Origin: Chromatiales bacterium
GTDB lineage: Bacteria > Pseudomonadota > Gammaproteobacteria > SZUA-152
Length of the DNA stretch: 48,582 nt
Reading direction: 5' to 3'
NCBI GenBank assembly: GCA_026982475.1
Contig: JALSHB010000177.1
Location: 1-48,582, forward strand
Within the stretch, counting starts at the first letter, position 1. The number at the start of each line of letters is the position of its first letter. Of the stretch, positions 3,301-45,325 are shown piece after piece. The translations under genes were made by a program, and so were the position numbers. The notes below the pieces were generated by a model, which saw only the letters and a list, made by a program, of their open reading frames with translations, did not search any database and was not told the DNA's origin.

Positions 3301-4319
3301 CCTGGCCGCACGAGACCCTGCCCGACCACCTGCGCATGCGCTACGAGATCATCGACGCCGAGGGCAAGACCGTCGGCCACGGTCGCGACCTGGCGGCCTT
3401 GCAGGCGCAGTTCGGCGCCCACGCCAGCGACGACTTCGCGCAGACCCTGGAACGCCATCACTGGGAGCGCGAGCACATTCGTCGATGGGACTTCGGCGAC
3501 CTGCCCGCGTTCGTCGAGATCGAGCGTGCCGGCAGCCTGTTTCGCGCCTTCCCGGCGCTGGCGGTGCAGGCCGATGGCAGCCTCGCCATCCAGCTCTTCG
3601 ACGCCGAGGCGCGCGCCGCCAAGGCCCACCGCGCCGGCCTGCGCGCGCTGCTGGCCCTGACGCTCGCCAAGCCCTGCAAATACCTGCGTCGCCACCTGCC
3701 GGACATCGACCGCCTGTGCCTGCAATACGTGGCTGTCGATGATTGCGAATCCCTCAAGGACGACCTGCTGGCACTGATCATCGACCGCTGCTTCTTCCGC
3801 GATGGCTTTGCCGTGCGCGAGCAGGCCGAATTCGAGTCGCTGATCGAGACCCACCAATCCGCTTTGCTGACAGAGGCCAATGCGGTGGGAAAACTGGTCG
3901 CCGACATCATCGGCCGCCACCACGCGGTGCAGAAGCGCCTGCGTGGCCAGCTGCCCCTGCAGACCATGGATGCGGTGAAGGACATCCAGCAACAGCTTGC
4001 GGCACTGGTGTATCCACACTTTCTCATCGAAACCCCCTTCGAATGGCTGCAACACCTGCCCCGTTTTTTGCAAGCGGTGGAACAGCGCATCGAGAAACTG
4101 CAGCAGATGCCCGCGGCGGACAGGGAGCGGATGGCGAAGCTGCGGCCGTTTCTGCTGGCCTGTCAGAAAAAAATGGCCGCCGGGGAAAACCCCCATCCTG
4201 CCCTGATCCAGCTGCGCTGGATGCTGGAGGAATACCGGGTTTCGGTTTTTGCGCAGGGCTTGAAGACCTCGCAACCCGTTTCGCCAAAACGGCTGGAGGA
4301 GGTGATTTCGCAATTATGA
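348..4319 (+). CDS. hrpA: ATP-dependent RNA helicase HrpA
   Basis: A DEAH-box RNA helicase of 1323 residues, close to the usual 1300 of bacterial HrpA, acting on RNA in the cytoplasm (in E. coli linked to mRNA processing and rescue of stalled ribosomes). Visible motifs are the Walker A GETGSGKTT near residue 101, DEAH followed by ERSLN near 198, SAT, and the motif VI stretch QRAGRCGRV. The long C-terminal HrpA-specific region (DUF3418-like) is complete. The track ORF begins further upstream inside the repeat; the ATG at 348 (MSESTRHHL) gives the normal N-terminus. The gene stands alone between repeat copies 1 and 2. The large antisense ORFs are GC-driven shadows. Confidence 0.96.
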   Translation: MSESTRHHLGALYDALDTCQTADRPALRKRLHGLRHALRAGRDTGNRLEAVKRDIDASRARVAQRCENLPAVSINEDLPIGGRWRDIAEAIEQHQVVVVAGETGSGKTTQLPKICLALGRGCAGLIGHTQPRRIAARSVATRIAEELNTEPGRVVGYKVRFSDHTRPESNIKLMTDGILLAELQGDRLLSQYDTLIIDEAHERSLNIDFLLGYLKRLLPRRPDLKLIITSATIDTGRFAAHFNHAPVIEVSGRSYPVEIRYRPLQGDDDEKDRDQQQAILDAVDEIAALDSRGDILIFLSGEREIRDTAEALRKHHPAHTEILPLYSRLSAVEQNRVFKTGARRRIILATNVAETSLTVPGIRYVIDPGTARISRYSTRSKVQRLPIEKIAQSSANQRAGRCGRVAAGVCIRLYSEEDFLARPEFTEPELRRTNLASVILQMRQLGLGNPEEFPFIDPPDRRFIHDGYRLLHELGALDAHNQLTPLGRQLARLPLDPRIGRMILEGSRQGCLSEVLVIASALSIQDPRERPQDKQQQADEQHRRFADEHSDFVTLLRLWNHYEEQRKHLSNSQLRKYCRKSFLAFMRMREWRETWQQLKTQARDMGLDLNREPADYAALHRALLTGLLGNLGNRLEEEDRKPPAVKGRSVRPRKGPQKYQGARNSVFYLFPGSAVAKKRPKWMMAAEIVETSRLYARGIARIEPEWIEPLARHLVKRSYTEPRWDVKRSQVTALETVSLYGLVIQSGKRVHFGPVDTPVAREIFIREALVQGNYRPPARRGQKGAEPAFLRHNRALIREAEDIEARGRRRDVLADEEALFAFFDQRIPEHIHGGASFEKWRREAEKAEPGLLKLPRELVIHPQRAGLGDSDYPGEMNVNGVRLHLRYGFNPGGEDDGVSALVPLGALNQLDPAPFEWLVPGLLVERVTALLKGLPKPIRKALVPVPDTAASLVRRLSDGPREGSLLDALTQLLKRHHGVAVPADAWPHETLPDHLRMRYEIIDAEGKTVGHGRDLAALQAQFGAHASDDFAQTLERHHWEREHIRRWDFGDLPAFVEIERAGSLFRAFPALAVQADGSLAIQLFDAEARAAKAHRAGLRALLALTLAKPCKYLRRHLPDIDRLCLQYVAVDDCESLKDDLLALIIDRCFFRDGFAVREQAEFESLIETHQSALLTEANAVGKLVADIIGRHHAVQKRLRGQLPLQTMDAVKDIQQQLAALVYPHFLIETPFEWLQHLPRFLQAVEQRIEKLQQMPAADRERMAKLRPFLLACQKKMAAGENPHPALIQLRWMLEEYRVSVFAQGLKTSQPVSPKRLEEVISQL

Positions 4320-4331
4320 GTTGCAAATAAA

Positions 4332-4640
4332 GTATCTATTCACCACAGAGGCACAGAGAACACAGAGAATGCATCAGTGGGAGGCCATGCCCCGGGTGGC
4401 GATGTGGCCTGCTCCGACGATCTGGCATTTCATTTCTTGGTGAACGCCGTGTCTCTGTGGTGAATCAGGGGACGTTGACACCGGAGGCCGGGCCACGATA
4501 TCCAGCGCAAAGGTTTTCTGACAGGATTTCCTTTGCGCCCTCTGCGCCTTTGCGGCCTCTGTGTTTCATTCCATTTCCGGCATGAACCTGAAGACCCTTT
4601 CTCTGTGCCTCCGTGTCTCTGTGGTGAGCTGAATAGTTAC
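4332..4640. repeat. Dispersed long repeat, copy 2
   Basis: Second copy of the 'CACCACAGAGGCACAGAG' repeat, in direct orientation and starting 12 bases after the hrpA stop. It shares the start 'GTATCTATTCACCACAGAG' with copy 1 and the trailing sequence 'GCTGAATAGTTAC' with copy 3, so the flanks were duplicated together with the repeat. The central module lacks a short 'AAGGGCGC' stretch present in copies 1 and 3. Confidence 0.85.
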
Positions 4641-5044: not shown

Positions 5045-5074
5045 AGAGCCGTTCAGTCGAGCGGCTCTTTTTTT
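5045..5074 (+). terminator. Rho-independent terminator after the 76-aa ORF
   Basis: The stem AGAGCCG/CGGCTCT with a 10-base loop is followed directly by a run of seven T. It points in the direction of the small ORF at 4788 and ends just before repeat copy 3. Confidence 0.85.
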
Positions 5075-5084
5075 ATGTGCGATT

Positions 5085-5406
5085 GTATCTGTTCACCACA
5101 GAGGCACAGAGAACACAAAGAATGCATCAGTGGGAGGCAATGCCCCGGGTGGCGATGTGGTCTGCCCCGACGACCGGGCATTTCATTTCTCCGTGAACGC
5201 CGTGTCTCTGTGGTGAATCAGGGGGCGTTGGCACCGGGGGCCGAACCACGATATCCAGCGCAAAGGGCGCAAAGGTTTTCGAAAGGATTTCCTTTGCGCT
5301 CTCTGAGTCTTTGCGGCCTCGGCGTTTCATTCCATTCCCGGCATGAATCTGAAGAGCCTTTCTCTGTGCAGCCGTGTCTCTGTGGTGAGCTGAGCTGAAT
5401 AGTTAC
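5085..5406. repeat. Dispersed long repeat, copy 3
   Basis: Third direct copy of the repeat, starting right after the terminator. Small differences from copies 1 and 2 include 'CTCTGTGCAGCCGTG' near the end and a tandem duplication 'GCTGAGCTGAAT'. After it, 5407-5592 contains no gene I can support. Confidence 0.85.
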
Positions 5407-17735: not shown

Positions 17736-17799
17736 TGTGGGAGCGGCTTCAGCCGCGAAGAGATAACAACCTTGTTTTGCGGCTGAAGCCGCTCCCACA
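17736..17799. repeat. REP-like inverted repeat in pheS-pheT gap
   Basis: TGTGGGAGCGGCTTCAGCCGC and its perfect 21-base reverse complement enclose 22 bases. This 'gtgggagcggcttcagccgc' type is widespread in Pseudomonas, Xanthomonas and relatives as an intergenic REP element. It may stabilise the pheS message or weaken pheT read-through. Confidence 0.85.
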
Positions 17800-26324: not shown

Positions 26325-26436
26325 AAGTAGCCACGGTTCATCCCGGCACAGGGGTCCCTTGGCCCAGAAAATCATTTCCATCGCCTTGGAACCCTGCAAG
26401 GATTTTCCTTGCGGTCCCGGCACTCATCCCATTGCT

Positions 26437-26466
26437 GCATTCTCTGTGTTCTCTCTGCCGCTGTGG
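26437..26466 (-). repeat. Degenerate fragment of the CACCACAGAG repeat
   Basis: On the minus strand the sequence reads close to CACAGAGGCACAGAGAACAC, the opening of the long repeat at 32, 4332 and 5085. Only about 30 bases remain and the orientation is inverted. The rest of the 26342-26523 gap holds no gene. Confidence 0.6.
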
Positions 26467-26523
26467 CGAAGAGAGGCTTTTCTGCCTTTCCGGTCCTCAT
26501 GGCGGGCCGTCATGGCGCTTTTG

Positions 26524-43641: not shown

Positions 43642-43697
43642 GATGCCGGCCGCGCGCGGTGCTAGTGTGCTCAGGGTTCGATGCCGGAGACAAAAGG

Positions 43698-43967
43698 ATG
43701 GAGGTGGCCGTGGCGCGTTACGATTTTTCCGCGGACGCGCGTGCGCAAATTGGCGGGCACGAGCATGGCCTGCTGAAGATCGTCTACACCAAGGCGGAGC
43801 ACAAGGTGGTGGGCGTTCATGTGCTGATGGAAGGTGCCTCCGACCTGATGGGCGAGGCGGCCCTGCTGGTGCGCCACGGCCTGCCGCTGGAGGCCATCGC
43901 CGTGGCCATCCACCCTCACCCGACATTGACCGAGTCCTTTGCACAGGCCGCGTGCATGAACCACTAG
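43698..43967 (+). pseudogene. C-terminal stump of a flavoprotein disulfide reductase
   Basis: 90 codons. YDFSADARAQI, VYTKAEHKVVGVHVLMEG and HPHPTLTESFAQAA are the dimerisation domain of pyridine-nucleotide disulfide oxidoreductases, between soluble transhydrogenase and dihydrolipoamide dehydrogenase. The FAD, NAD and redox Cys parts are missing. The ATG keeps an upstream GGAG and lies 23 bases after the inferred start of transcription, so a regulated promoter and start site are fused to the gene's tail. The stop codon lies at the edge of the MITE. Confidence 0.8.
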
Positions 43968-44251
43968 TGCTCTTTCAAGGTAATAACACGGATTCAGTTG
44001 GTCTGTCAGCGTTCAGGGCAAGGCGCGCCTCGCAGCGAATGGCCTTAGTCCTTTGCAAGAGGCGCACCAACAGTAGGCGCTTTAGGCGACGCGGCCATGG
44101 ACGCTGACAGGCCAACCCTTCGGGCGCTCCTGTGGTGTCCCGCGCCCACGTTGCAGTGCTTGACAAGGGGAACAGCCATTGCCTGCGCACTGCGCCTTGC
44201 CGCGAAACACCACAGGAACGCTGAGTCCGTGTTATTACCTTGAAAGAGCAC
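43967..44251. mobile_element. 285-bp MITE with TA target duplication
   Basis: Terminal inverted repeats of about 32 bases (GTGCTCTTTCAAGGTAATAA ... and its complement) differ at one position. TA flanks both ends (43965-43966 and 44252-44253), the mark of IS630/Tc1-type transposition. There is no transposase ORF, so it is non-autonomous. The interior is GC-rich, with partly self-complementary GGCAAGGCGC/GCGCCTTGCC segments. Confidence 0.85.
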
Positions 44252-44299
44252 TAGCAAGCCCCATGATGAAGAGCTAACTGAAAAAAGGAGACGTTTGCC

Positions 44300-45325
44300 A
44301 TGACGACGCAACAGCAACTCCAGGCCACCATCGAACAGATGGTGCAGACGGGCAAGGGCATTCTCGCCGCCGATGAAAGCCTGCCCACCATCGCCAAGCG
44401 TTTCGCCCTCATCGGCGTCGAATCGACACAGGAGAACCGCCGTGCCTGGCGCGCCCTGTTGTTCACCGCGCCGGGCATCGAGGATTACATCAGTGGCGTG
44501 ATCGAGTTCGAGGAGACCCTGAGCCAGACCACCGACGACGGCACGCCACTGCCCGAGGTGTTGGCGCGGCGTGGCATCGTCCCCGGCGTCAAGGTGGACA
44601 AGGGCAAGGGGCCGCTGGCCCTGTCGCCGGGTGATCTCATTACTTATGGTCTCGATGGCCTGGCGGAACGATTGCAACAATACAAGCAGCAGGGTGCGCG
44701 CTTTGCCAAGTGGCGCGAGGTCTATCCCATCGGCAGGCACAACCCCTCGTCGCTGGGCATCACTGCCAATGCCGAGATGCTGGCGCGCTATGCGGCGGTC
44801 TGCCAGGAACAGGGCATCGTGCCCATCGTCGAGCCGGAGGTGTTGATGGATGGCGACCACAGCCTGGCCCGTTGCGCCGAGGTGACCGAGGCGGTGCAAA
44901 AGGAAATCTTTCATGCCCTGCACCGCCACCATGTCACGCTCGAACACATGGTGCTCAAGCCCAACATGGTGCTGCCAGGGAAGGACTGCCCGCAACAGGC
45001 CAGCGCCGAAGAGGTCGCCGCGGCCACGGTGCGGGTGCTGCGCCGCTGTGTGCCGGCGGCGGTGCCGAGCATCAATTTTCTCTCCGGCGGCCTGAGCCCG
45101 GCGCAGGCCACGGCCAATCTCAACGCCATCAATGCCGGTTTCCCCCTTGAACCCTGGCTGCTGTCGTTTTCCTATGGCCGGGCGCTGCAGCAGCCGGTGC
45201 TGCAGGCCTGGCGGGGCAGGGCGGAGAATGTGCCGGCGGCGCAGCGGGCGTTGCTCAAGCGCGCGCGGCTCAATGGCGCGGCGCAGCGGGGGGAGTACCA
45301 GGCGTCCATGGAGGAAGATGACTGA
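44300..45325 (+). CDS. Fructose-bisphosphate aldolase, class I
   Basis: 341 residues of the metal-independent class I type found in animals, plants and some bacteria. GKGILAADES, the Schiff-base Lys220 in LEHMVLKPNMVLPG and INFLSGGLSPAQATANLN are family marks. It cleaves fructose 1,6-bisphosphate. AAAAAAGGAG precedes the ATG. It starts 46 bases after the MITE, which could therefore have changed its promoter. Downstream lies the tail of a metallo-beta-lactamase gene. Confidence 0.95.
   Translation: MTTQQQLQATIEQMVQTGKGILAADESLPTIAKRFALIGVESTQENRRAWRALLFTAPGIEDYISGVIEFEETLSQTTDDGTPLPEVLARRGIVPGVKVDKGKGPLALSPGDLITYGLDGLAERLQQYKQQGARFAKWREVYPIGRHNPSSLGITANAEMLARYAAVCQEQGIVPIVEPEVLMDGDHSLARCAEVTEAVQKEIFHALHRHHVTLEHMVLKPNMVLPGKDCPQQASAEEVAAATVRVLRRCVPAAVPSINFLSGGLSPAQATANLNAINAGFPLEPWLLSFSYGRALQQPVLQAWRGRAENVPAAQRALLKRARLNGAAQRGEYQASMEEDD

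Follow-up and report, generated by a model that had tools for sequence, protein, structure and literature searches.

A two-armed palindromic MITE upstream of a class I aldolase gene belongs to a widespread superfamily in Gammaproteobacteria

The 48,582-nt stretch of Chromatiales bacterium DNA analysed here (assembly GCA_026982475.1, contig JALSHB010000177.1; hereafter the window) carries a class I fructose-bisphosphate aldolase gene (44300..45325, + strand; PF00274, E 2.4e-142) downstream of a C-terminal stump of a pyridine nucleotide-disulphide oxidoreductase (43659..43967, +). Between the two lies a 291-nt element at 43964-44254, both CTAGs counted, and 45 nt of host DNA separate it from the aldolase gene downstream. 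Sequence and repeat search delimited a left terminal inverted repeat, with its CTAG target context, at 43964..43997 (+; CTAGTGCTCTTTCAAGGTAATAACACGGATTCAG) and a right one at 44221..44254 (-; CTGAGTCCGTGTTATTACCTTGAAAGAGCACTAG); the repeats are 34 nt long with one mismatch between them (43993 against 44225), and the ends of this copy begin CTAGTGCTCTTTCAAGG. The target TA occurs on both sides, each time within CTAG (43965..43966 and 44252..44253), and its left copy supplies the TA of the TAG with which the stump ends. A sequence-only reading of the stretch had described near-perfect terminal repeats, an intact TA duplication and a length of 285 bp; all three hold, the last as the 285 nt between the two TAs. 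The element is non-coding, and the only ORFs inside it are mechanical ones.

That reading also had a G of the element completing the stop codon of the stump. When the flanks are joined with a single TA, they read ...AAC CAC TAG CAA GCC..., so the stop predates the insertion, which merely restored it; creation of the stop codon by the insertion is ruled out. A preference for landing in TAG stops was not significant, with 13 of 48 CTAG boundaries ending an ORF of at least 100 codons versus 12 of 75 background CTAGs (p 0.10). A gene-orientation bias of insertion sites was dropped as a candidate, as the ORF heuristic misread even the window. The upstream gene itself is reduced to the disulphide oxidoreductase C-terminal domain. 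Among relatives, the oxidoreductase gene stands directly before the aldolase gene (L062) or has a peroxiredoxin gene between (L054), and in L058 an oxidoreductase remnant holds another palindromic insert.

Other repeats occur in the window. A REP-like hairpin, TGTGGGAGCGGCTTCAGCCGCGAA, is followed by its inverse 16 nt away (17736-17799), and a 227-nt repeat is present in three direct copies that are 81-89% identical (16-242, 4316-4542 and 5069-5295). The latter contains the motif ACCACAGAGGCACAGAGA, which is found again, inverted, at 26427-26480.

A search of the window's own genome returned seven full or nearly full copies of the element (contigs 177, 154, 172, 220, 119, 48 and 88) and one half copy. 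Identity among them is 85-96%, and their flanks show no similarity apart from CTAG or TA. Because of these copies, the element is a MITE: it is short and non-coding, has inverted ends and a target duplication, and occurs at multiple unrelated sites. It is one of a superfamily that is widespread in the class Gammaproteobacteria. The MITE identity put forward from the sequence was thereby upheld.

The inference that the insertion is young because its ends match fared less well. Loci L028 (genome G002) and L036 (G006) share one insertion in the same gene neighbourhood (3.3 kb aligned at 86% identity). Two changes at the left end of this insertion are mirrored by two changes at its right end. Matching ends are therefore no sign of youth, since both ends changed together. 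The window copy moreover differs from the nearest recent copies at 10-12 positions, whereas four other copies in the genome differ from one another at 0-3; in the alignment, most of its differences fall in one right-arm stretch that is also present in copy C88. A second insertion is shared by two species at a cytochrome c maturation locus (L132 in G003, contig C13, and L134 in G005, contig C220), and in L132 the arms have been lost, leaving the two matching terminal repeats as a simple hairpin. The window element may be recent, though not among the freshest copies, because two congeners with an intact aldolase gene are without it, and an identical insertion at this site was not seen in those relatives. 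The TA duplication is also present in copies from G048, where contigs C1, C3, C5 and C8 hold near-identical, recently active copies and no DDE_3 transposase match was found.

Inside the terminal repeats, the element consists of two arms. The left arm (43999..44117, +) comprises an outer stem and an inner bulged hairpin broken by a 22-nt insert, and the right arm (44123..44219, -) is its inverted homologue. A covariance model of the arm, R1, scored them at 65.5 bits (E 3.6e-12) and 99.8 bits (E 1.1e-19), respectively, its E-values being rough owing to a short calibration. The same layout runs through the superfamily: terminal repeat, arm, a CCCTTCGGG turn, inverted arm and terminal repeat. The predicted fold is a three-way junction in which the terminal repeats pair as one stem and the two arms branch off. 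Its stability was well beyond that of shuffled sequences, with z = -12.2 for DNA folding and z = -13.5 and -12.7 for RNA folding of the two strands, and no shuffle was as good.

Comparison of copies indicated that pairing, more than sequence, has been preserved. Among copies from the genus, the ends differ between copies, yet each copy's own ends match. In order to examine the arms, 22 of them were aligned in the same sense, with sense assigned from motifs and not from wobbles. The alignment has the common blocks CAAGGCG, GCAG, AATGG, CCTT, CAAG and AACGC, and two-sided change was seen in 21 of its 34 stem pairs. In total, 98.4% of cells were paired, a figure that fell to 35-46% when the partner was slid by one to three columns and that none of 500 shuffles equalled. 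A bulged T and a U-G pair persist at fixed places, the latter in 20 of the 22 sequences. The arms are kept as bulged hairpins by compensatory changes. Wobble cells were also strongly asymmetric, with G-U to A-C ratios of 73:3 in the genus and family set and 104:10 in arms from distant genomes. This excess of G-U over A-C suggests that the structure matters on one strand, which runs from each end to the middle. Conserved as a one-strand structure that is read from the ends inward, the arms are probably more than passive filler.

A serious rival is that the paired changes are unselected and arose through template switching during replication of hairpins, which uses one arm as the template for the other and would homogenise any palindrome. 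It would explain why ends and arms are both matched, although a transposase need not read the arms, as well as the paired changes in the shared insertion and the concentration of the window copy's differences from young copies in the right-arm stretch that it has in common with C88. Template switching should, however, erase bulges and wobbles, whereas the bulged T and the U-G pair stay where they are, G-U is far above A-C, and conserved loop and stem motifs are seen throughout the class. We consider it rather unlikely; the fixed bulges and strand-specific wobbles favor selection on the folded strand.

The R1 model was then applied to 274 genomes sampled across the class, most of which are drafts. 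Matches at E <= 1e-4 (a rough value, as above) were obtained in 69 of them, covering 56 of 222 genera, and many positive genomes had at least 14 scored matches, the count per genome being capped near 15; most often the matches form inverted pairs separated by about 5 nt. Nothing was found at E <= 0.05 in 60 named control loci (550 kb). The ends vary widely among these elements (GTGTCCTGTCACACGTC, TATTAACCCGGCAACC, GTGTACCGCGCCACTCC and others), mostly in CTAG or TA context and usually terminated by TCAG. Neither a description of the superfamily nor its arm core sequence was found in the literature searched, which left most subscription journals outside, and as a class-wide MITE superfamily it is apparently undescribed before now. 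In L271, L276, L277, L287, L200 and L270, the 22-mer of the left arm is embedded in an AT-rich sequence, GCAGGAATAGTCGTTCTATTTCGAG, that may be related to the arm core; the superfamily may be larger than R1 shows.

The nearest known relative appears to be the Correia element of Neisseria (also NEMIS or CREE), the first bacterial MITE ever described. The comparison used a 107-nt Correia sequence that two N. gonorrhoeae records contain with 100% identity. Like the window element, Correia is a MITE that targets TA and contains a long palindrome. R1 aligns to this 107-nt copy over all 97 positions, from 1 to 97, at 34.8 bits (E 1.9e-5), a score that is not decisive alone, as antisense arms also reach 22-36 bits under R1. 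For this reason the stronger evidence is the series of ordered blocks CAAGGCG, CGCAG, CAAG and CAACGC that Correia and the superfamily arms have in common. Their spacing in Correia is CAAGGCG-N7-CGCAG-N18-CAAG-N6-CAACGC, against N5, N20 and N5 in the superfamily, i.e. 1-2 nt off. The spacing of the block pattern was loosened post hoc, a first, stricter pattern having failed on the superfamily itself; in this loosened form it matched 15 of 33 near loci, 8 of 27 distant loci and Correia, with no match in the 550 kb of control loci or in 22 Mb of shuffles. Correia differs in that it has a single arm, with the terminal repeat itself serving as the outer stem, and in its ends, which begin TATAGTGGATTAA and are absent from the window element. 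For Correia, cutting by RNase III, promoters and an IHF site have been reported (PMC10969869, PMC2229807). ERIC, RUP, RU-2 and REP/REPIN are likewise small palindromic intergenic repeats, and several of them are TA-flanked MITEs (PMC2229807); their sizes and ends differ, and the text consulted describes no such two-arm core for them. A palindromic, TA-flanked element with a Correia-like core (GTACTACTTGTACTGTCTGCGGCC) and different ends was noticed on the megaplasmid of Cupriavidus metallidurans CH34 (L223).

The association of one core with many unrelated ends could also mean that the arms represent a structured RNA which has no part in transposition and was captured by many transposons. The strand-specific wobble pattern fits such an origin, as do the existence of a single-arm form (L185) and the resemblance of Correia to one arm. 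The arms are inverted, however, so that each transcript would carry one sense and one antisense arm, and Rfam 15 returned no family at or above its gathering score, the sole match at E <= 1 being to a miRNA family at 18.3 bits versus a gathering score of 268. On this balance, capture of a free-standing RNA seems improbable, and we retain the MITE superfamily with structurally conserved arms as the preferred reading.

The 22-nt module in the left arm (CCAACAGTAGGCGCTTTAGGCG, 44067..44088, +) neatly separates the two A's of GCA^ACGC. In the insertion shared by L028 and L036, it is present in G006 and absent from G002. In other copies, it borders the inner hairpin on the left, on the right or on both sides, or takes the place of the hairpin, a replacement of the kind expected from recombination between two copies. 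The 22-mer was found in 12 of 274 class genomes when up to one mismatch was allowed and, with up to two allowed, in 17 of the 24 genomes from the order to which the window belongs, with multi-copy variants. It is not confined to this superfamily, being found in other repeats, in a group II intron (L201), where it is an exact 22-nt insert relative to the Rfam model, and inside the reading frame of an IS91-like transposase (L202), so named from reading the translation and not from a family search. Loci at which it has inserted into unrelated elements of distant Gammaproteobacteria are L201, L202, L288, L195 and L211. Without the 22 nt, L201 and L202 align unbroken to plasmid homologues, with the junctions AATCCA^AAA and TTCA^ATATCGAC. 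Over 53 distinct junctions, position -2 is C or T in all, position -1 is A or G in all and position +1 is A in 51, and no target duplication was seen at these junctions. The viral contigs, phages and E. coli genomes searched did not contain the 22-mer, and one weak relative occurs on a Saccharobesus plasmid. No enzyme, source element or literature for it was found, most subscription journals being outside the literature searched. We tentatively suggest, with somewhat less than even confidence, that the module moves on its own as a micro-insert, entering YR^A sites (best GCA^ACGC) with no target duplication, and that an undescribed enzyme or process spreads it between unrelated mobile elements in Gammaproteobacteria.

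The sequence-only reading had proposed a search for an IS630-like element with the same ends. An IS630 link stands at the level of the family, and no such element was found in the window's genome. No match to an IS630-type (DDE_3) transposase was found in the draft assembly (G000), and in a pattern search of this genome the ends of the element occurred at MITE copies only. The genome G015, from the same family, contains an IS630 element (L246:1368-2613; about 1.25 kb, two ORFs, DDE_3; NF033545 at E 3.5e-39, above cut-off) whose ends, TAGTACATCGACCAGTTTATATTGACGGATAG, are perfect and stand in CTAG context. The letters of these ends compared with MITEs were GTACATCGACCAGTTTATATTGACGG. Sister MITEs match them nearly identically, at 17-23 of 26 letters overall: L185 at 23, L186 at 22, L041 at 21 and L254 of G004, a full two-arm MITE (R1 E 4.4e-11, equally rough), at 23. 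The ends of the window copy match at only 11 of 26 (shuffle p 0.047). Its TA duplication within CTAG is shared with IS630 elements and their derived MITEs. The arms of the MITEs are without counterpart in the IS. An IS630 origin is thus well supported by end similarity for the sister elements and only plausible for the window copy. An IS630 partner within the genus was ruled out, as the DDE_3 loci there are without MITE ends, and so was the IS630 of G144, whose ends (TATTGAGCCTTGCATAAATA) mismatch its MITE. Another enzyme, or one since lost, may be the current mover, because 11 of 14 element-rich genomes, including G048, show no DDE_3 match; most of the genomes are drafts, which lose IS elements.

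We propose that a non-autonomous DNA transposon, a MITE of this superfamily, entered the CTAG site, with its TA duplicated, and that an IS630-type transposase, or a relative since lost from the genome, would have acted on it in trans through the matched ends. A transcript crossing the element would fold as a three-way junction of long duplexes and, by analogy with Correia/NEMIS, would probably be cut by RNase III. Such a cut would leave the aldolase mRNA with a 5' end made by processing, for which a new promoter is not needed. With trans-mobilization and RNase III processing as its inferred steps, we regard this explanation as a whole as likely. That the insertion has taken on a role in regulating the aldolase gene, through an outward promoter or an attenuating hairpin, we consider doubtful: the element lies 45 nt 5' of the start codon between genes of the same direction, and Correia elements are known to carry promoters, an IHF site and sites of RNase III cutting (PMC10969869), but the single promoter-like match at its right edge (TTGAAA-16-CATGAT, 44240..44267, +; one found in the search versus 0.3 expected in shuffles) is weak at 9 of 12 positions and half host sequence, with its -35 in the terminal repeat and its -10 in host DNA, no terminator-like site was found, and two congeners have an intact gene without the insertion. 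This one match is all that was found for the new 5' region that the sequence-only reading saw in the insertion.

The preferred reading, a mobile MITE with structurally conserved arms, extends beyond this locus. Within the superfamily, the shared insertions make end identity unusable as an age clock. That the 22-nt insert is found clean in a transposase gene as well as in a group II intron prompts the question of how such a short DNA spreads. The results suggest that Correia represents a single lineage within a far larger MITE superfamily. About a quarter of the sampled genomes of the class carry this superfamily, and its inner arms are conserved by folding and not by letters, so that selection on the structure of a bacterial MITE, and the purpose of that structure, becomes testable.
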